Shown here piece by piece: positions 6,515 through 58,767 of a DNA stretch of 64,000 bases. The DNA lies in assembly GCF_000020325.1 (NCBI RefSeq), contig NC_010730.1, forward strand, positions 422,001 through 486,000, written 5' to 3'. The stretch is from Sulfurihydrogenibium sp. YO3AOP1. Its GTDB lineage: Bacteria; Aquificota; Aquificia; Aquificales; Hydrogenothermaceae. The position numbers were made by a program, and so were the translations under genes. Every line of letters starts with the position of its first letter. Positions within the stretch are counted from its first letter, which is position 1. A model generated the notes under the pieces. It ran no database searches and had not been told where the DNA came from. It saw only the letters and a program-made list of their open reading frames with translations.

Positions 6515-7572
6515 TAAACAGAAGAAAGACAAGACCAGTTTATGTAGGTAATGTTAAAATAGGCGATGGAGCACCGATAGTTGTCCAATCTATGACAGAC
6601 ACAAAAACGCATGACATAGAAGCAACTTTAAATCAGATAAATAGGCTTGCAAAAGCAGGTTGTGAAATTATAAGGGTAGCCGTTCCAAGAGAAGAGGATG
6701 CGTTAGCACTGCAAGAAATTGTAAAAAATTCTCCAATTCCGGTAATAGGTGATATACATTTTTCTCCAAGAATTGCCTTTTTATCTCTTGAAAGCGGTAT
6801 ACACGGAATCCGACTTAATCCGGGAAACATTAACGATAAAGGAAAAATTAAAGAAATCCTTCAAGAGTGTAAGAAAAAAAATATTGCAGTTAGACTTGGT
6901 GTTAACTCTGGTTCCTTGGAAGAAAGACTTCTTGAAAAGTATGGTTATCCGTCTGCTGAAGCCTTGGCAGAAAGTGCTTTGTACTGGTCAGAATTTTTTG
7001 AGTCTGTAGGTTTTACAAACTTTAAAGTTTCTATAAAAGGTTCTGACGTACTTCAAAATATAAAAGCAAATAAAATCTTTGCAGAAAAAACTGACATACC
7101 GCTTCATATAGGTATCACAGAAGCAGGGCCAGCAGGTAGAGGGTCTATAAAGTCAGCTGTCGGTATTGGCATTTTACTGTATGAGGGCATCGGAGATACA
7201 GTAAGGGTCTCTTTAACAGCAGACCCGGAGGAAGAGATAAAGGTAGTATATCAAATTCTTCAAGCACTGGATTTGAGAAGAAAAGGTGTTGAGATTGTAT
7301 CCTGTCCAACATGTGGAAGGATTGAGGTAAACTTGCCGGAAGTTGTCAAAAAAGTTGAAGAAAAATTAGAAGCGGTAGATAAACCTTTAAAGGTTGCAAT
7401 AATGGGATGCGTTGTCAATGCAATTGGAGAAGCGAAAGAAGCAGATATTGGGTTAGCATGTGGAAATAAATCAGCTATTTTATTTAAAAAAGGAGTTCCA
7501 ATCAAAAGAGTCTCTGAAGAAGAGATGGTAGAGGAGTTATTAAACGAAATTCAAAGAATGGATAATGAATAA
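6511..7572 (+). CDS. ispG: 4-hydroxy-3-methylbut-2-enyl diphosphate synthase
   Basis: Penultimate enzyme of the MEP isoprenoid pathway, using a [4Fe-4S] cluster to convert MEcPP to HMBPP. The 353-residue protein has the N-terminal TIM barrel (PIVVQSMTDTKTHD, IRLNPGNI) and the C-terminal cluster ligands SCPTCGR and MGCVVN, the usual three cysteines. It starts at TTG 6511 within the previous stop (TTGA overlap). Its last codons overlap the next gene by 8 bp, so translation is likely coupled. It is the bacterial short form, without the insert found in plants. Confidence 0.96.
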   Translation: MINRRKTRPVYVGNVKIGDGAPIVVQSMTDTKTHDIEATLNQINRLAKAGCEIIRVAVPREEDALALQEIVKNSPIPVIGDIHFSPRIAFLSLESGIHGIRLNPGNINDKGKIKEILQECKKKNIAVRLGVNSGSLEERLLEKYGYPSAEALAESALYWSEFFESVGFTNFKVSIKGSDVLQNIKANKIFAEKTDIPLHIGITEAGPAGRGSIKSAVGIGILLYEGIGDTVRVSLTADPEEEIKVVYQILQALDLRRKGVEIVSCPTCGRIEVNLPEVVKKVEEKLEAVDKPLKVAIMGCVVNAIGEAKEADIGLACGNKSAILFKKGVPIKRVSEEEMVEELLNEIQRMDNE

Positions 7573-7993
7573 GGAAATATTTTTATCTTATTTAGCCGGA
7601 ATGTTTGATAACTGTGGCAAACTTTCTTTAAAAAAAGATGGAAGAACAAAGAAAAGCATATATCCTGAGGTCATTTTAAGGTCTAAAAAGGAAGATTTTT
7701 TAATCCGGGTAAAAGAAGCATACGGCGGAACTCTTAGAAAAAACAAAAATTCTTATGTTTTAATCTTAACACACAAAAAAGCCAAAAATTTATTAAACGA
7801 CTTAAAAGATTTCTCTATTTTAAAAAAAAGAGAGATTGAGATAATACAGCAGATTTTTTCAAAACAATTTTCCGGTAAATTAGAAGAAAAAAGAAGAAGA
7901 AAATTGATTGAAGAGTTTTTATTTTTAGTTCAGCCTTCTGAAAGAAAATCTAAAAACAAAAAATGGTCTGTAAAATCTCTGTTGGAGGATTAA
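7565..7993 (+). CDS. Degenerate LAGLIDADG-like protein, 142 aa
   Basis: FLSYLAGMFDNCGKLSL at residues 6-22 resembles the LAGLIDADG helix of homing endonucleases (typical form YLAGLFDGDGSI), but the final acidic residue that binds the metal is replaced by Cys, so nuclease activity is doubtful. The rest (ILRSKKEDFLIRVKEAYGG, then a very basic C-terminus) fits the alpha-beta fold and DNA or RNA binding. It overlaps ispG by 8 bp and sits inside a core operon, not in an intron or intein. It may be a domesticated single-domain protein with a regulatory role. The similarity is by eye and the function is unknown. Confidence 0.6.
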   Translation: MNKEIFLSYLAGMFDNCGKLSLKKDGRTKKSIYPEVILRSKKEDFLIRVKEAYGGTLRKNKNSYVLILTHKKAKNLLNDLKDFSILKKREIEIIQQIFSKQFSGKLEEKRRRKLIEEFLFLVQPSERKSKNKKWSVKSLLED

Positions 7994-7996
7994 GGT

Positions 7997-8341
7997 TTGG
8001 AAGAGAAAGAATTCAACTTAAGAGGCGTTGCTGTAGATGTTACTTCTTATGAGCTTGAAGGTGTAGATGAATTTGGAAAGGCGCCTATAGTGCTAAAAAA
8101 AGTTATAAAATATAAAAGCAGCTTCAGCTTAGTAATGAAAGGAATAACCGAAGAGTTAGAATGGTATTTTTCTAAAGGACTTACAAATATATACTTTTTA
8201 GACAACGGAAAAGCTCTAAGAATAGAACATGAAGATGGAACATATTGGGTAGACCTGCCTGCAGACCCGGAGCTAATAAACTTTCTTAAAGATTTTATAG
8301 AGGAGGCTTTAAAAGTTGGAAAGCATCATAGAAAAGGCTGA
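7997..8341 (+). CDS. Conserved-looking hypothetical protein, 114 aa
   Basis: I do not recognise the family. The protein is small, soluble and acidic, with alternating beta-type stretches ([40 protein letters not shown]) and a C-terminal helix. There is no signal, membrane segment or metal motif. The start is TTG at 7997 with GGAGG eight bases upstream. It overlaps argB by 26 bp, and the argB ribosome site AGGAGG lies inside it, which points to coupled expression within the ispG-argB-murD block. Confidence 0.7.
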
Positions 8342-9215
8342 GATACTTTTAGAGGCACTGCCATTTATAAGAAATTTTAGAGGTAAAACCTTTGTTATAA
8401 AATACGGCGGAAACGCTATGGACAAAGCAGATTTAAGAGATGCTTTCGCACAAGATATCATAATGCTTAAATACATTGGAATAAATCCTGTAATCGTTCA
8501 CGGTGGAGGACCACAGATAGGTCAGTACTTGAAAAAAATGGGCTTAGAGTCTAAATTTGTTGGCGGTTTGAGAGTAACAGACAAAGAGACAATGGATATT
8601 GTTGAGATGGTTCTTGGTGGTCTTGTAAATAAAAGCATCGTTCAGTTGATAAATAGTTATTCAGGCGGGCATGTGAAGGCGGTAGGAATTACAGGAAAAG
8701 ACGGATGTTTAATAAAAGCAAAAAAGTTAGATGCAGAAGAATATTTTAGGTCTATTGGAGATTACAGACCAACGGAGCTTTTAGACTTAGGTCATGTTGG
8801 AGAGGTTGAAGAAGTAAATCCGGAGCTTTTAATCCATTTAGATGAAGACAACTACATACCTGTTATTGCACCAATAGGATTTGATGCAGAAGGAAACGCT
8901 TACAACATAAACGCAGATTTTGTTGCAGCAGCTATTGCAGGAGCTTTAAAAGCAGAAAAAGTATTATTTTTAACAGACATAGAAGGCTTAAAAGATGAAA
9001 ACGGCAATACTTTGTCATCTGCAACTGTTAGCCAGATAAACCAAATGATAAAAGATGGTGTTATAAAAGGTGGAATGATTCCAAAAGTAAAAGCTTGTAT
9101 CCAAGCTTTAGAGAAAGGCGTTAATAAAGCACATATATTAGATGGCAGGCTTCCTCACTGCATTCTTTTAGAAATTTTTACTAAAAAAGGTGTTGGTACA
9201 GAAATAACTCTGTAG
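8316..9215 (+). CDS. argB: Acetylglutamate kinase
   Basis: Phosphorylates N-acetylglutamate, the second step of arginine synthesis. The 299-residue protein shows the amino-acid kinase fold: [11 protein letters not shown] and [15 protein letters not shown] at the N-terminus, [17 protein letters not shown] for the N-acetylglutamate site, [14 protein letters not shown], and [17 protein letters not shown] near the C-terminus. The N-terminal helix before the kinase core (residues 1-25) is of the type found in arginine-inhibited hexameric enzymes. It starts at TTG 8316 behind AGGAGG. It is followed 10 bp later by murD. Confidence 0.96.
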
Positions 9216-29628: not shown

Positions 29629-29639
29629 TTTTATTACCT

Positions 29640-29686
29640 CCACTATATATAGTATGTAAAACTAAATAATACACTAAATATAGTGT
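29640..29686 (-). promoter_or_regulatory. Paired NrdR-type boxes upstream of nrdB
   Basis: ACACTAAATATAGTGT (29671-29686) and CCACTATATATAGTAT (29640-29655) both match the NrdR-box pattern ACACWATATATWGTGT. Their centres are exactly 31 bp apart, three helical turns, as known for NrdR repressor sites. The near box abuts the GGAGG ribosome site. The nrdR gene is not in the window. Confidence 0.85.
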
Positions 29687-29945: not shown

Positions 29946-29959
29946 TTGACCAAAATCAA
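29946..29959 (+). promoter_or_regulatory. Fnr-type operator in front of a candidate small RNA
   Basis: TTGACCAAAATCAA has the TTGAC-N4-ATCAA form also seen before the nirD/L gene (45023). A TATATTCT at 29981-29988 sits where a -10 would be if the operator were centred at -41.5, giving a start near 29994. Confidence 0.65.
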
Positions 29960-29993
29960 AGACTTTTTATAAATCTTTAATATATTCTGAATA

Positions 29994-30069
29994 TTGAAAT
30001 CTCCATATTCGCACCTCCACAGTTGTGTTTTCTCCCGGGCGCTTCATAAAAAGGAAGCGCCTCTTTTTT
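29994..30069 (+). ncRNA. Candidate Fnr-controlled small RNA, about 76 nt
   Basis: The stretch has a promoter (operator 29946-29959, -10 near 29982), no open reading frame, and a strong intrinsic terminator at its end. The 5' part is C/U-rich and mostly unpaired, with ATCTCCAT, GCACCTCCAC and TCTCCCGG; CACCTCC is a perfect anti-Shine-Dalgarno sequence. This is the build of base-pairing small RNAs such as the Fnr-induced FnrS/AniS type. Existence and targets are inference. The rest of the gap 29687-30321 contains only this unit and the nap promoter. Confidence 0.6.
30038..30069 (+). terminator. Intrinsic terminator not attached to any gene
   Basis: GGCGCTTC pairs with GAAGCGCC (8 bp, loop ATAAAAAG) and is followed by TCTTTTTT. 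The nearest upstream gene (nrdB) points the other way, so a separate short transcript must end here. Confidence 0.85.
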
Positions 30070-30182: not shown

Positions 30183-30196
30183 TTGATTTAAATCAA
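30183..30196 (+). promoter_or_regulatory. Fnr-type operator of the nap operon
   Basis: TTGATTTAAATCAA is a perfect palindromic Fnr/Dnr-type site. A TAAATT near 30219 fits a -10 for a site centred at -41.5, giving a leader of about 90 nt before napA. Confidence 0.8.
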
Positions 30197-30253: not shown

Positions 30254-30308
30254 CCGCCTGTATGTGAGGCGGAATACAAATATCCATACCCCATTATCTT
30301 AAATGGGA
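30254..30308 (+). promoter_or_regulatory. Two hairpins in the nap leader
   Basis: CCGCCT/AGGCGG with a 7-base loop is followed by CCCAT/ATGGG directly before the AAGGAG ribosome site. The second could mask or expose the site. Not matched to a known riboswitch class by eye; a role in molybdenum-cofactor or translational control is a guess. Confidence 0.4.
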
Positions 30309-45092: not shown

Positions 45093-46109
45093 ATGGTTGA
45101 AAATTTATTTTTAAAAATGATACAAGAATCATTTCCATTGGTTCAAAGACCCTTTAAAAAGTTAGGAGAAGAGCTTGGAATATCCGAAGAAGAAGCTTTA
45201 TCCCTGTATGCAAAATTAAAAGATGAAAAGATTATTCGTAACACTTCAGCTATTTTGGAAACAAAAAAAGTAGGTTATAAATCTACTTTGGTTGCGTTTA
45301 GCGTTGATAGTATCGAAAAAGCAGCAGAATATATAAATACCCATCCTGGTGTAAGCCACAATTATGAAAGAGACCACGAAATTTTTAATTTATGGTTTAC
45401 ACTCGCTGTTCCATCAGAATCATCTTTGGGTTTGGAAAAAACTATCGAGATATTAGCCAATAGAACTGGTGCAAAAGATTACATTATCCTTCCAACAATC
45501 AAGATGTTTAAAATTGGTGTCGTTCTTGACACTACATCAACAGAACCTTTAAAAAAGGATATTTCAGAAAAACATGAAAATAAAAATTTAGAATTAACAG
45601 AATTTCATAAAAAAATCCTTTATTACATTCAAAGAGACATTCCAATAAAATATGAACCTTTTGAAGGTATTATAAAAGAATTAAATTGTGATTATGATTC
45701 ATTTTTTAACGAAGTGAACAATTTAATACAAGCAGGATATATAAGAAGATTTGCAACATTGCTTAACCATAGAAAAGCTGGATTTACTGCTAACGCAATG
45801 GTGGTATGGAATGTTCCAGAAGAATTTCAAGAGTTAGCTGGAGAAACGATAGCAAAATATACTTCTGTTTCTCACTGTTATATAAGACCAAAATTCCCAC
45901 CAAAATGGAATTATAATCTTTTTTCTATGATTCATGGAAAATCAAAAGAGGATTTAGAAAGTATTATTGATAATATCGGTAAAGAAATACAAATAAAAGA
46001 TTATTTACCTCTTTATTCCTTAAGAGAATTTAAAAAACAAAGAATTGATTATTTTAGTCCTAAATTCTACGAATGGGAAAAATTAAACAGTTTGCATTCT
46101 TTGATCTAA
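45093..46109 (+). CDS. nirDL: Fused siroheme decarboxylase, NirD/NirL type
   Basis: Acts in heme d1 synthesis, removing acetate carboxyls from siroheme to give didecarboxysiroheme. The 338-residue protein is two AsnC/Lrp-like units in tandem. Unit one has a winged helix (EELGISEEEALSLYAKL) and GVSHNYERDHEIFNLWFTL; unit two has SVSHCYIRPKFPPKWNYN and LFSMIHGKS. The His/Tyr/Arg positions in these loops are those of the decarboxylase site. In many denitrifiers this work is done by separate NirD, L, G and H. Start chosen at ATG 45093 because the earlier ATG lies in the Fnr-type site. Confidence 0.9.
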   Translation: MVENLFLKMIQESFPLVQRPFKKLGEELGISEEEALSLYAKLKDEKIIRNTSAILETKKVGYKSTLVAFSVDSIEKAAEYINTHPGVSHNYERDHEIFNLWFTLAVPSESSLGLEKTIEILANRTGAKDYIILPTIKMFKIGVVLDTTSTEPLKKDISEKHENKNLELTEFHKKILYYIQRDIPIKYEPFEGIIKELNCDYDSFFNEVNNLIQAGYIRRFATLLNHRKAGFTANAMVVWNVPEEFQELAGETIAKYTSVSHCYIRPKFPPKWNYNLFSMIHGKSKEDLESIIDNIGKEIQIKDYLPLYSLREFKKQRIDYFSPKFYEWEKLNSLHSLI

Positions 46110-46114
46110 ATCAA
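46101..46114 (+). promoter_or_regulatory. Fnr-type operator before nrdD
   Basis: TTGATCTAAATCAA. It overlaps the last codons of the nirD/L-type gene and lies 8 bp upstream of the first NrdR-type box, so nrdD should be induced without oxygen and repressed when dATP is high. Confidence 0.8.
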
Positions 46115-46121
46115 TGACCTA

Positions 46122-46168
46122 ACACTATATATAGTGTTATTATTATTTTAGTACACTATATATAGGAG
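46122..46168 (+). promoter_or_regulatory. Paired NrdR-type boxes before nrdD
   Basis: ACACTATATATAGTGT (46122-46137) is a perfect box and ACACTATATATAGGAG (46153-46168) is the second. They are 31 bp apart, as at nrdB. The second box runs into the GGAGGA ribosome site. Confidence 0.88.
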
Positions 46169-46175
46169 GATTCAA

Positions 46176-48287
46176 ATGTTTATCATCAAAAGAGATGGAC
46201 TGGCTCAAGAATTTATGCCATATAAAATAAAGGATGCTATTGAGAAGGCTTTCAAAAGTGTTAACCAAACATTTGATGAAATAATTTACAACAATGTATT
46301 AACAACTTTAAAACAAAAAGATGTATGGACGGTGGAAGAAATCCAAGATTTAATAGAGAAGGAGCTTTTTAGAGCAGGATATTTCGAAGTTATGCGTTCT
46401 TTCATGCTTTATAGACATACAAGGAAATTACAAAGGGAACATATTTTAGGTTTAAACGATGATACCACTTATATTGATTGTACACAAGCTGTTGAAGAGT
46501 ACATTTACAACAAAGATTGGAGAGTTAATGCAAATTCTAACATGGGATACTCTCATGCTGGTCTTGTAAATAACTTGGCCGGAAAGGTTATTGCGAACTA
46601 TTGGCTTGATAAAGTATATAGCAAAGAAGCTGGTTATGCCCATAGAAATGGTGATATTCATATACATGACCTTGATAATCTTTCTGGATATTGTGCTGGT
46701 TGGAGTTTAAGGCAACTCTTAAACGAGGGCTTTAATGGAGTTAGAGGAAGAGTAGAAAGCAAGCCACCCAAGCACTTTAGGGAAGCTTTAGGTCAAATGG
46801 CAAACTTTCTTGGAACCTTACAATCAGAATGGGCAGGGGCCCAATCGTTTAGCTCATTCGACACATATCTTGCTCCATATGTTTTTAAAGATAAATTATC
46901 ATATAACGATATCAAGAAGGCAATTAGAAGTTTTGTGTACAATTTAAATGTGCCATCAAGATGGGGACAATCACCTTTTACAAATATAACTTTAGATTGG
47001 ACTGTTCCAGAAGATTTGGCGGAGCAATGGCCTACAGTAAATGATAGGCACTTATTTGAAGACATAAATGATGAAGAGCTCATAGAAAAAGCAAAAGAAA
47101 GAGGAGTTGAAAAATTAACAGATTTAAAATATAAACATTTCCAAAAAGAAATGGATCTAATCAATAAAGCCTTTTTTGAAGTTATGACGGAAGGTGATAA
47201 ATCAGGACAGCCTTTTACATTTCCAATACCGACAGTTAACATTACTGAAGATTTTAATTGGTATGGAGAAAATACTGATATACTTTTTGAAAATACAGCA
47301 AAATTTGGTACTGCATACTTCCAAAACTTTATAGGAAGTCAGTATATTATTGACGAAAATGGAGAAAAAATAAAAAATCCTGATGCTTTTCAACCAAACA
47401 TGGTTAGAAGTATGTGCTGCAGATTACAGCTTGATCTAAGGGAGTTGCTAAAGAGAGGGAATGGACTATTTGGAAGTGCGGAAATGACAGGTTCAATAGG
47501 AGTTGTAACTTTAAACATGGCAAGATTAGGATACAGGTTTAAAGGGAATAAAGAAGGGTTTTATAGAGAGTTAGACAGACTTTTAGATATAGCAAAAGAT
47601 ACTTTAGAAAGGAAAAGAAAATTCGTTCAAGATATGTATGATAGAGGGCTCTATCCTTATACAAAAAGATATCTTCATTCTTTTAAAAATCATTTTTCAA
47701 CAATAGGCGTAAATGGAATGAATGAAATGATAAGAAACTTTACTAACGATGCTTACGATATTACAACGCAAGAAGGAATAGAATTTGCAAAAGAAGTTTT
47801 GGATTACATTAGAGAAAAAATTGTTAAATTCCAAGAAGAAACGGGAAATCTCTACAATCTTGAAGCAACTCCTGCAGAAGGTGCAACATACAGGTTTGCT
47901 AAAGAAGATAAAAAAAGATATCCCGATATAATTACAGCGGGGGAAGGAGAAAATATTTATTACACAAACAGTTCTCAAGTTCCCGCATATTATTCCGACG
48001 ATCCATTTGAAGTATTAACATTGCAAGATGATTTACAATGTAAATATACTGGAGGAACAGTACTGCACATATATTTAAAAGAAGCTATAGCTAATAAAGA
48101 AATATGCAGGAATTTAGTTAGAAAAATTATAACAAACTTTAAACTACCATACATTACTATAACACCGTTAATAACAGTATGCCCTAAACACGGAAGATTG
48201 GATAAAAATTATGAATACTGCCCTAAATGTGATGAAGAATTAATTGAAAAATTTATAAAGGAGGTGCAAGAACATGAAAACATTTAA
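46176..48287 (+). CDS. nrdD: Anaerobic (class III) ribonucleotide reductase, catalytic part without the glycyl-radical tail
   Basis: Reduces ribonucleoside triphosphates in the absence of oxygen. The 703-residue protein has an N-terminal ATP cone (IIKRDGLAQEFMPYKIKDAI), YAHRNGDIHIHDLDNLSGYC, and SQVPAYYSDDPFEVLTLQDD near the active site. It ends with the zinc region CPKHG and CPKCDEEL and then stops. The glycyl-radical motif (RVxGY) that normally follows is absent; it is encoded by the next gene, which has its own ribosome site and overlaps by 14 bp. The gene is under paired NrdR boxes and a Fnr-type site. Confidence 0.92.
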   Translation: MFIIKRDGLAQEFMPYKIKDAIEKAFKSVNQTFDEIIYNNVLTTLKQKDVWTVEEIQDLIEKELFRAGYFEVMRSFMLYRHTRKLQREHILGLNDDTTYIDCTQAVEEYIYNKDWRVNANSNMGYSHAGLVNNLAGKVIANYWLDKVYSKEAGYAHRNGDIHIHDLDNLSGYCAGWSLRQLLNEGFNGVRGRVESKPPKHFREALGQMANFLGTLQSEWAGAQSFSSFDTYLAPYVFKDKLSYNDIKKAIRSFVYNLNVPSRWGQSPFTNITLDWTVPEDLAEQWPTVNDRHLFEDINDEELIEKAKERGVEKLTDLKYKHFQKEMDLINKAFFEVMTEGDKSGQPFTFPIPTVNITEDFNWYGENTDILFENTAKFGTAYFQNFIGSQYIIDENGEKIKNPDAFQPNMVRSMCCRLQLDLRELLKRGNGLFGSAEMTGSIGVVTLNMARLGYRFKGNKEGFYRELDRLLDIAKDTLERKRKFVQDMYDRGLYPYTKRYLHSFKNHFSTIGVNGMNEMIRNFTNDAYDITTQEGIEFAKEVLDYIREKIVKFQEETGNLYNLEATPAEGATYRFAKEDKKRYPDIITAGEGENIYYTNSSQVPAYYSDDPFEVLTLQDDLQCKYTGGTVLHIYLKEAIANKEICRNLVRKIITNFKLPYITITPLITVCPKHGRLDKNYEYCPKCDEELIEKFIKEVQEHENI

Positions 48288-48459
48288 AGAATTATCAAAA
48301 GAAGAAATATTAAAACTTTTGGAAAATGAAAGGACTAAAACATTACAGTACACGAGGGTTGTTGGTTATTATAGACCTATTGAAAGTTTTAACAAAGGTA
48401 AAAAAGGAGAGTTTAAAGAAAGGGTATATTTTGAAATAGAAAATAATATCAAACTTTAG
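48274..48459 (+). CDS. Separate glycyl-radical subunit of the class III ribonucleotide reductase, 61 aa
   Basis: The protein carries YTRVVGYYRPIESFNKGKKG (Gly31 the radical site), which is the C-terminal glycyl-radical loop of NrdD. The start ATG 48274 has a textbook site (AAAGGAGGTG) placed inside the end of nrdD. The first 25 residues (FKELSKEEILKLLENER) form a helix that could dock on NrdD. The arrangement resembles the spare-part protein GrcA/YfiD of pyruvate formate-lyase, but here it would be the only radical domain. Activated by NrdG, encoded 77 bp downstream. Confidence 0.82.
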   Translation: MKTFKELSKEEILKLLENERTKTLQYTRVVGYYRPIESFNKGKKGEFKERVYFEIENNIKL

Positions 48460-57511: not shown

Positions 57512-58099
57512 ATGGAATACTTGCCAATAGTCCTAAATATAAAAGACAGAAAGTTTCTTGTGGTAGGAGGAGGTAATATTGCTTTTGAAAAAATAAATAG
57601 ACTTACCAAGTTTACACATAACATAACAATAGTCTCACCAGATATAAAAAATGAACTTTATGACTTAATTCAAAAATACAATCTTGAATACATAAAATCA
57701 GAATATGCTTATGGGATGCTTGATAATTTTGATATTGTTATTGTAGCTGCTGATAACTTAGAATTACAAAAATCCATTTATCATGAAGCTAAATCTAAAG
57801 GCAAATTTTGTAATTCTGTTGATATGGCTGAATATTCTGATTTCATTTTTTCATCTATCATAAAAAAAGGGAATTTTCTATTATCATTCTCAACATCCGG
57901 AACATCCCCTGCTTTAGCAAAATATTTAAGAAAATTTTTTGAGGAAATAATTCCAGATGAAATTGAGAAATTTCTTGAAGAGATGGAAACATTAAGAAAT
58001 CAACTTCCAAAAGGTAAAGAAAGGCAAGAATTGATGGATAAACTTGCAAAAGAGTTTGTAGAGAAATATTTTAAAAACAACAAGGAGGGTAAAAAATGA
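57512..58099 (+). CDS. Precorrin-2 dehydrogenase / sirohydrochlorin ferrochelatase
   Basis: Oxidises precorrin-2 and may insert iron to make siroheme (the CysG-B/Met8 function). The 195-residue protein has the NAD loop FLVVGGGNIAFEKINRL, IVIVAADN, FCNSVDMAEYSDFIFSSIIKKG and FSTSGTSPALAKYLR. It lacks the methyltransferase half, which CobA provides. It overlaps the regulator gene by 4 bp (ATGA), tying siroheme supply for heme d1 to the denitrification regulator. Confidence 0.92.
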   Translation: MEYLPIVLNIKDRKFLVVGGGNIAFEKINRLTKFTHNITIVSPDIKNELYDLIQKYNLEYIKSEYAYGMLDNFDIVIVAADNLELQKSIYHEAKSKGKFCNSVDMAEYSDFIFSSIIKKGNFLLSFSTSGTSPALAKYLRKFFEEIIPDEIEKFLEEMETLRNQLPKGKERQELMDKLAKEFVEKYFKNNKEGKK

Positions 58100-58767
58100 A
58101 TATTGAAGACTTAAAGAATGCATATCTATTTAGTCAGCTATCAGAAGAGACATTAAGAAAATTAGCAAGTATATCAAGAGTTAAAGAGTATGAACCAGGT
58201 CAAGTTCTATTTTTTGAAGGTGAAAAAGCTGAAAATTTATATATTTTATTAGAAGGAAAATTAAAAGTTTACAAGACAACGTTTAAAGGAATAGAAGTTT
58301 TTATAAATCAATTTGGTCCTGTTACTTTAATTGGTGAAATGGCTAATTTTGAAAAAGTTCCATATCCGGCAACAGCAGAGTTTATTACGGAAGGTAAAGT
58401 TTTAATTATAAACTTTAGAACCTTTGAAGAGGAATTCCTAAAAAATCCGGAAATTTTGGTTTCAATAATAAAATCTTTATCAAATAAAATTAGAATGTTA
58501 AATAAATTCATAGATTCAACAGTAGTTCTTAGTGCCGATGCAAGAGTAGCAAAACTGATTTTAGAAAGTCCGGAAATATTTGAAGTTTTAAAACATAATC
58601 AAATAGCTTCTTTTTTAAACATTACTCCAGAAACACTCTCAAGAGTTATTTCAAGATTAAAACAAAAAGGAATTATTTTTATCGACGGAAGAAAGATTAT
58701 CATAAAAGATAGAGATAAACTTAAAAAAATTTCTAAGGATGAGCCTTTACTGCTAAATAATACCTAA
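58096..58767 (+). CDS. Crp/Fnr-family regulator of denitrification, Dnr/Nnr-like
   Basis: A 223-residue regulator: an N-terminal cyclic-nucleotide-type sensor domain (residues 10-125), a dimer helix, and a helix-turn-helix at 168-191, NQIASFLNITPETLSRVISR. The recognition residues E179, S182 and R183 are those of Fnr, which reads TTGAT. No Fnr-type N-terminal cysteines are present, so it should not bind a 4Fe-4S cluster; it is more like DNR/NNR, which sense NO through heme. Matching operators occur at least eight times in the window. RBS AGGAGG. Confidence 0.9.
   Translation: MNIEDLKNAYLFSQLSEETLRKLASISRVKEYEPGQVLFFEGEKAENLYILLEGKLKVYKTTFKGIEVFINQFGPVTLIGEMANFEKVPYPATAEFITEGKVLIINFRTFEEEFLKNPEILVSIIKSLSNKIRMLNKFIDSTVVLSADARVAKLILESPEIFEVLKHNQIASFLNITPETLSRVISRLKQKGIIFIDGRKIIIKDRDKLKKISKDEPLLLNNT

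Follow-up and report, generated by a model that had tools for sequence, protein, structure and literature searches.

In Escherichia coli and Salmonella, the anaerobic small RNA FnrS is driven by an Fnr-type operator and represses mRNAs that are dispensable without oxygen (PMC8139620). In Neisseria, AniS is made under oxygen limitation, while NmsRA and NmsRB carry two UC-rich anti-Shine-Dalgarno segments that lie between and in hairpins (PMC5362039). Denitrifiers also have small RNAs tied to nitrate respiration, namely PaiI of Pseudomonas aeruginosa, which is 126 nt long and NarL-dependent, and DenR of Paracoccus denitrificans (PMC8139620). For the Aquificales, the main text of a survey of non-coding RNAs gives experimental novel small-RNA candidates only for Aquifex aeolicus (PMC4227106).

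In its layout, the predicted small RNA of Sulfurihydrogenibium sp. YO3AOP1 is in keeping with the functional class that includes FnrS, RoxS, PaiI and DenR (reviewed in PMC8139620). Several features of Fnr/Dnr-activated members are present: an Fnr-type operator and a -10 element spaced for activation, a Rho-independent terminator and the lack of a conserved ORF. It resembles FnrS in being a small RNA under an Fnr-type operator, but differs in that its activator is probably a cysteine-free regulator encoded in the adjoining denitrification island, in that its motifs are anti-Shine-Dalgarno C/U segments, and in the absence of any Rfam match to FnrS. As in NmsRA and NmsRB, the predicted RNA has a terminator and UC-rich segments placed both between hairpins and within them. 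It most likely represses the translation of several mRNAs. Judged by Rfam, its sequence is unrelated to AniS or to NmsRA and NmsRB. Unlike PaiI and DenR, its gene sits within a denitrification island under an Fnr/Dnr-type operator, and it is shorter than PaiI. The preliminary description had called the RNA undescribed, and no Rfam 15 family, FnrS included, matches it at gathering score. One candidate family, the alphaproteobacterial small RNA mmgR/suhB (RF00519), fell below threshold (16.4 bits against the 41 needed); a GUUU-CUCCC segment directly before the terminator is common to both.

The features of the locus, in coordinates of the window (the whole stretch of 64,000 nucleotides that was analysed), are as follows; G034 and G038 are the two congeneric genomes in which the same layout occurs.

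29946-29959, forward strand: Fnr/Dnr-type operator TTGACCAAAATCAA of the predicted small-RNA promoter; its counterpart in G034 and G038 is TTGATAAAAATCAA.
29981-29988, forward strand: -10 element TATATTCT, containing TATTCT; G038 has TAAAAT at equal spacing.
29993-30069, forward strand: predicted small RNA of about 75-77 nt, placed by promoter spacing and terminator, with an uncertainty of a few nucleotides at the 5' end.
30000-30004, forward strand: first C/U motif, UCUCC, in the loop of a weak 5' hairpin.
30012-30018, forward strand: anti-Shine-Dalgarno motif CACCUCC, retained in both lineages compared.
30026-30036, forward strand: UGUUUUCUCCC (DNA TGTTTTCTCCC), the longest identical block between both lineages.
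30037-30069, forward strand: intrinsic terminator with a stem of 8-9 bp and a T tract, acting in the rightward direction only.
30183-30196, forward strand: perfect operator TTGATTTAAATCAA of the napA promoter, distinct from that of the small RNA; G034 and G038 retain it.
29636-29643, reverse strand: ribosome site GTGGAGGT of nrdB, a candidate pairing site, overlapping an NrdR-like box at 29640-29653.
58096-58767, forward strand: Crp/Fnr-family regulator of the island without cysteine, the likely activator, from the HTH_Crp_2 search.

The operator, the -10 element, the three C/U motifs and the terminator of the preliminary description are all present, at or no more than one base from the positions reported for them. 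The operator matches TTGATnnnnATCAA at 9 of 10 positions, thus with one departure from the consensus, and TATTCT lies approximately 30-35 nt 3' of its centre, which is the spacing of a class II activated promoter. The 5' part of the predicted RNA is AU-rich, and its weak hairpin hinges on the assumed start site. The segment GCACCTCCAC (30011-30020) includes the claimed anti-Shine-Dalgarno motif: the 16S 3' tail of the same genome, GGATCACCTCCTTT, contains CACCTCC, and the RNA should consequently be able to pair with many ribosome sites. The emphasis within this C-rich region needs to be shifted, however, as the anti-Shine-Dalgarno motif is indeed kept, but the block best conserved between lineages is UGUUUUCUCCC rather than GCACCUCCAC; it occurs as a single copy in the 465 kb sampled from the YO3AOP1 genome. 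The terminator stem (arms 30037-30045 and 30054-30062) has eight Watson-Crick pairs and one G-T pair around a loop of 8, followed by CTTTTTT, which ends at 30069; as the T tract is one-sided, the terminator acts rightwards. The left neighbour, nrdB, is transcribed leftwards, and there is no rightward gene upstream for the terminator. The transcript had been described as free of reading frames, and neither an ORF with a ribosome site in YO3AOP1 nor one common to the homologues was found. The z-score of the RNA fold is approximately -2.5 in YO3AOP1 and between -4.5 and -5.3 in the homologues.

Conservation was studied in six congeneric genomes and in 136 genomes of the phylum. The loci of G034 and G038, found by a pattern of the operator plus ACCTCC, reproduce this layout in the corresponding position next to the napA promoter; neither napA nor the RNA was found in the remaining four congeneric genomes. 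In both, the order is TTGATAAAAATCAA, TAAAAT, CCACCACACCTCC, TGTTTTCTCCC and GGGAACC TCCTCC GGTTCCC, then a T tract, such that CACCTCC and the 11-mer TGTTTTCTCCC are kept; conservation of promoter, C-rich motif and terminator in relatives, which had been put forward as a check, is thus observed. The sequence of the terminator stem is almost fully replaced in G034 and G038 with its pairing retained, and both hairpins of the RNA survive such replacement. Between YO3AOP1 and G038, approximately 55% of fourfold-degenerate sites differ in nrdB and in napA. With synonymous sites so heavily substituted, selection is the best explanation for the persistence of the motifs, their spacing and the hairpins, and it probably acts on the conserved blocks of the RNA. 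G034 and G038 are closer to one another (fourfold sites differ by 32% in nrdB and, in the longest gene of the right flank, by about 15%) and their RNAs are identical from the start to the terminator stem, meaning that the comparison comprises two independent sequence lineages. As MAFFT misaligned the motifs of these two lineages, the comparison rests on motifs and not on a covariance model of the RNA. In all three genomes the gene to the left points away from the RNA, being nrdB in YO3AOP1 and a transposase fragment and glutamate dehydrogenase in the others, and the terminator must therefore end a rightward non-coding transcript.

Beyond these loci, a longer layout pattern applied to the 136 genomes of the phylum recovered the three true loci and three unrelated matches in two genomes, against 3-4 matches for the reversed-pattern control. 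A DNA similarity search with the whole stretch returned no full-length relative, the operator alone being matched. The best operator matches in another genus (g8) represent the promoter of a succinate dehydrogenase/fumarate reductase-type gene: here (L083-L091, near 1500), the same extended operator, TTGAYAAAAATCAAAGATTTTTT, stands between a divergent gene for a succinate dehydrogenase/fumarate reductase-type iron-sulfur subunit and a gene for an archaemetzincin-like protein. A looser pattern, ACCTCC-TTTTCTCCC, gave matches at about the control level, some of which are CRISPR repeats of G034. The block UGUUUUCUCCC equals the start of these repeats, GTTTTCTCCCGACTATGAGGGAATTGAA (L258-L260), over 10-11 nt; because no GTTTTCTCCCGACTATGAGGGAATTGAA-type repeat is present in the sampled part of the YO3AOP1 genome, the coincidence is probably due to chance.

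The surroundings of the RNA differ between the two relatives. In G038 the RNA locus is immediately upstream of napA and the island is partly collinear, while in G034 the RNA and the napA operator are retained and napA and the entire island are absent. In the latter genome (L203, near 6900-8750), under 2 kb separates the left edge of the island from its right flank; this interval holds a transposase, and the sequence beyond the transposase is that of the island's right flank in the window (61.3-64 kb). Since the left edge and the right-flank sequence now flank one transposase, the denitrification island has most likely been deleted in G034 between the RNA with its adjoining napA operator and the right flank. 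The RNA of this strain may be a relic, its island regulator and operons being lost.

The island occupies 30-61 kb of the window and contains nap, with the identity of NapA confirmed, as well as nos genes, nrdD, nrdG, nir genes and a regulator as identified by reading of the sequences. Six perfect TTGATnnnnATCAA sites occur in these 31 kb, where 0.15 are expected. The first 30 kb of the window have no such site, and 400 kb from elsewhere in the genome have three (1.8 expected). The predicted small RNA is the first element of the island regulon, at the left edge of the island. An O2-sensing Fnr, as originally envisaged for its activation, is not supported by the proteins available: the HTH_Crp_2 profile detects two proteins in the genome, the island protein and one at L167, and the N-terminal cysteine cluster that would hold a [4Fe-4S] centre is missing from both. 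Their scores with the Fnr model are 53.6 and 58.7 bits, relative to a cut-off of 228. The recognition helix reads PETLSR in the island protein and VETAIR in the L167 protein; the former fits the E-x-x-S-R pattern of Fnr/Dnr proteins, whereas the latter does not. Within the genus, a close relative of the island regulator is found in G038 only (82%), and YO3AOP1 and G038 are the only genomes with both napA and this regulator. The activator is hence probably the island's own cysteine-free Crp/Fnr protein, of a Dnr/NnrR-like type. As this regulator lacks cysteine and has an FNR-like E-x-x-S-R motif, it may respond to nitrogen oxides and not to the loss of oxygen.

Two further observations concern the anaerobic ribonucleotide reductase encoded in the island. 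At 46101-46175, the Fnr-type operator of nrdD (46101) immediately precedes NrdR-like palindromes, TTGATCTAAATCAATGACCTAACACTATATATAGTGT, an arrangement that suggests joint control. The enzyme itself seems to be split into a 703-aa NrdD (46176-48287), which stops after a zinc-site-like CPKH...CPKC part, and an overlapping 61-aa ORF (48274-48459) with a glycyl-radical-like RVVGYYRP motif and its own ribosome site.

From these sequence comparisons, a small-RNA gene of about 75 nt is very likely to be real and conserved. The reading preferred for its product, held with a probability of approximately 0.7, is that of a trans-acting regulatory RNA of the island. When nitrate or nitric oxide is respired, the island's cysteine-free Crp/Fnr-family protein would activate it along with nap, nos, nir and nrdD. 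The CACCUCC and UGUUUUCUCCC segments would then cover the ribosome sites of several mRNAs, probably with the aid of Hfq, for which there are two genes in the genome, and the covered mRNAs would be translated less, nrdB being one candidate. A small RNA that belongs to such an island and persists in three genomes would add the Aquificota to the groups with this type of control, and would offer a specific case in which post-transcriptional regulation of the change to nitrate respiration can be tested at high temperature.

The two 8-nt complementarities that had been claimed for the RNA are both present: ACCTCCAC is complementary to GTGGAGGT of nrdB over 8 bp, and GCACCTCC to GGAGGTGC at 48260, which is 7 nt before the 61-aa glycyl-radical ORF (48274). 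Complementarity of at least 8 nt to the RNA is, however, found in the ribosome-site region of 20 of the 413 sampled genes, and such matches are by themselves weak evidence. The pairing at 48260 would repress an anaerobic enzyme, which is opposite to the logic proposed, and so shows that the anti-Shine-Dalgarno segment is unspecific. The ranking of interactions over ribosome sites, also suggested previously as a check, was based on sampled stretches covering about a quarter of the YO3AOP1 genome (1,838,442 bases) and half of G034, with gene starts from a simple purpose-made ORF caller. The outcome depends on the measure: by best contiguous helix nrdB is 3rd of 445 sampled genes in YO3AOP1, but by duplex energy with loops allowed it is 65th of 413, and given this disagreement neither ranking was used alone. 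No target is prominent or conserved in both lineages by the pairing ranks of the sampled genes.

That the RNA turns down nrdB in particular, as first proposed, is therefore best considered as a rival to the broader reading, in which the RNA gene would specifically repress aerobic nrdB (and nrdA) while the NrdDG of the island takes over. The pairing with the nrdB ribosome site is real and highly placed by helix, and in a combined rank over 156 ortholog pairs nrdB comes 3rd and nrdA 5th; the operator and NrdR-like box of nrdD also make a switch between aerobic and anaerobic enzymes plausible. Yet the nrdB pairing, which is at the 9th percentile in G034, shrinks to 6 bp and the 29th percentile in G038, where both the RNA and the island persist. 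Furthermore, the extra GUGG of the pairing is the 3' end of the palindrome CCACTATATATAGT (29640-29653), which is NrdR-like by the NrdR consensus. This box stands upstream of nrdB in genomes without the RNA as well, and thus fixes GUGG independently of it. Finally, nrdB adjoins the RNA only in the YO3AOP1 genome, and its rank by duplex energy counts against this reading. While nrdB is a possible target on this evidence, exclusive control of it is unlikely. The most ambitious form of the argument would make the RNA the built-in switch of the island, through which a nitrogen-oxide-responsive Crp/Fnr protein turns off aerobic functions, NrdAB included, as NrdDG and denitrification come on; this seems quite unlikely, but if true, respiration and DNA-precursor synthesis would change over together.

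The locus might instead be a promoter remnant with a stray terminator and no functional RNA. Operators matching at least 9 of 10 positions with a strong terminator 60-220 nt downstream occur once in 464 kb of the sampled sequence, where 0.36 pairs are expected by chance, so the operator-terminator pair alone is not significant. The layout is nevertheless above chance expectation, because the whole of it, with the same internal motifs, is conserved at the syntenic place in two further congeneric genomes, and a remnant is accordingly a very improbable explanation.

A 5' leader or attenuator of napA, in which transcripts from the upstream operator would pass a conditional terminator into nap, would suit the position of the element, which precedes napA by 250 nt on the same strand, and the presence of a structured nap leader. 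However, a promoter belonging to napA itself is indicated by the separate perfect operator TTGATTTAAATCAA, which lies 3' of the terminator and is shared by all three genomes; the terminator is strong and shows no evident alternative fold, and other genera have napA with its leader but without the RNA. Attenuation is consequently very improbable too. A Moco riboswitch or other known RNA family can be dismissed almost entirely, as the sub-threshold match to the Molybdenum family (RF01055; 22.6 against 36 bits) is spurious, aligning the terminator hairpin alone, with low posterior elsewhere and the aptamer core unaligned, and is not given by the homologous regions of G034 and G038.

The nap leader itself, at 30254-30291 between the napA promoter and start codon, contains a pseudoknot that is conserved in several genera of the family. 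Helix 1 is CCGCC/GGCGG, and the sequence of helix 2 covaries, being GUAUG/CAUAC in YO3AOP1, GGUUCGGU/ACCGAACC in G038, GCUAAA/UUUAGC in G013 and GCUGGGU/GCCCAGC elsewhere. In an alignment of 16 core sequences, from which the variable middle was removed by hand, six of the seven pairs of helix 2 are changed on both sides, with 19 double-changed cells as compared to 4.2 in shuffles. The pseudoknot has no Rfam match, and the reversed pattern has no match within the genus. The motif occurs in 6 copies in YO3AOP1, 9 in G034 and 14 in G037, for example at L132-L154, L264-L292 and L413-L432. In several cases the copy extends over the 3' end of a gene for a TnpB-type protein (NCBIfam TIGR01765 and TIGR01766, with scores above cut-off), often just before the start of other genes; further copies, with no TnpB gene in the inspected stretch, are in the leaders of napA and of an apparent ATP-citrate lyase gene. 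Guide RNAs of TnpB (omega RNAs) would be expected to be encoded at the 3' end of tnpB, and TnpB is reported to generate omega RNA by processing its own mRNA (PMC10278001). The napA leader may represent such a guide scaffold exapted as an mRNA leader.
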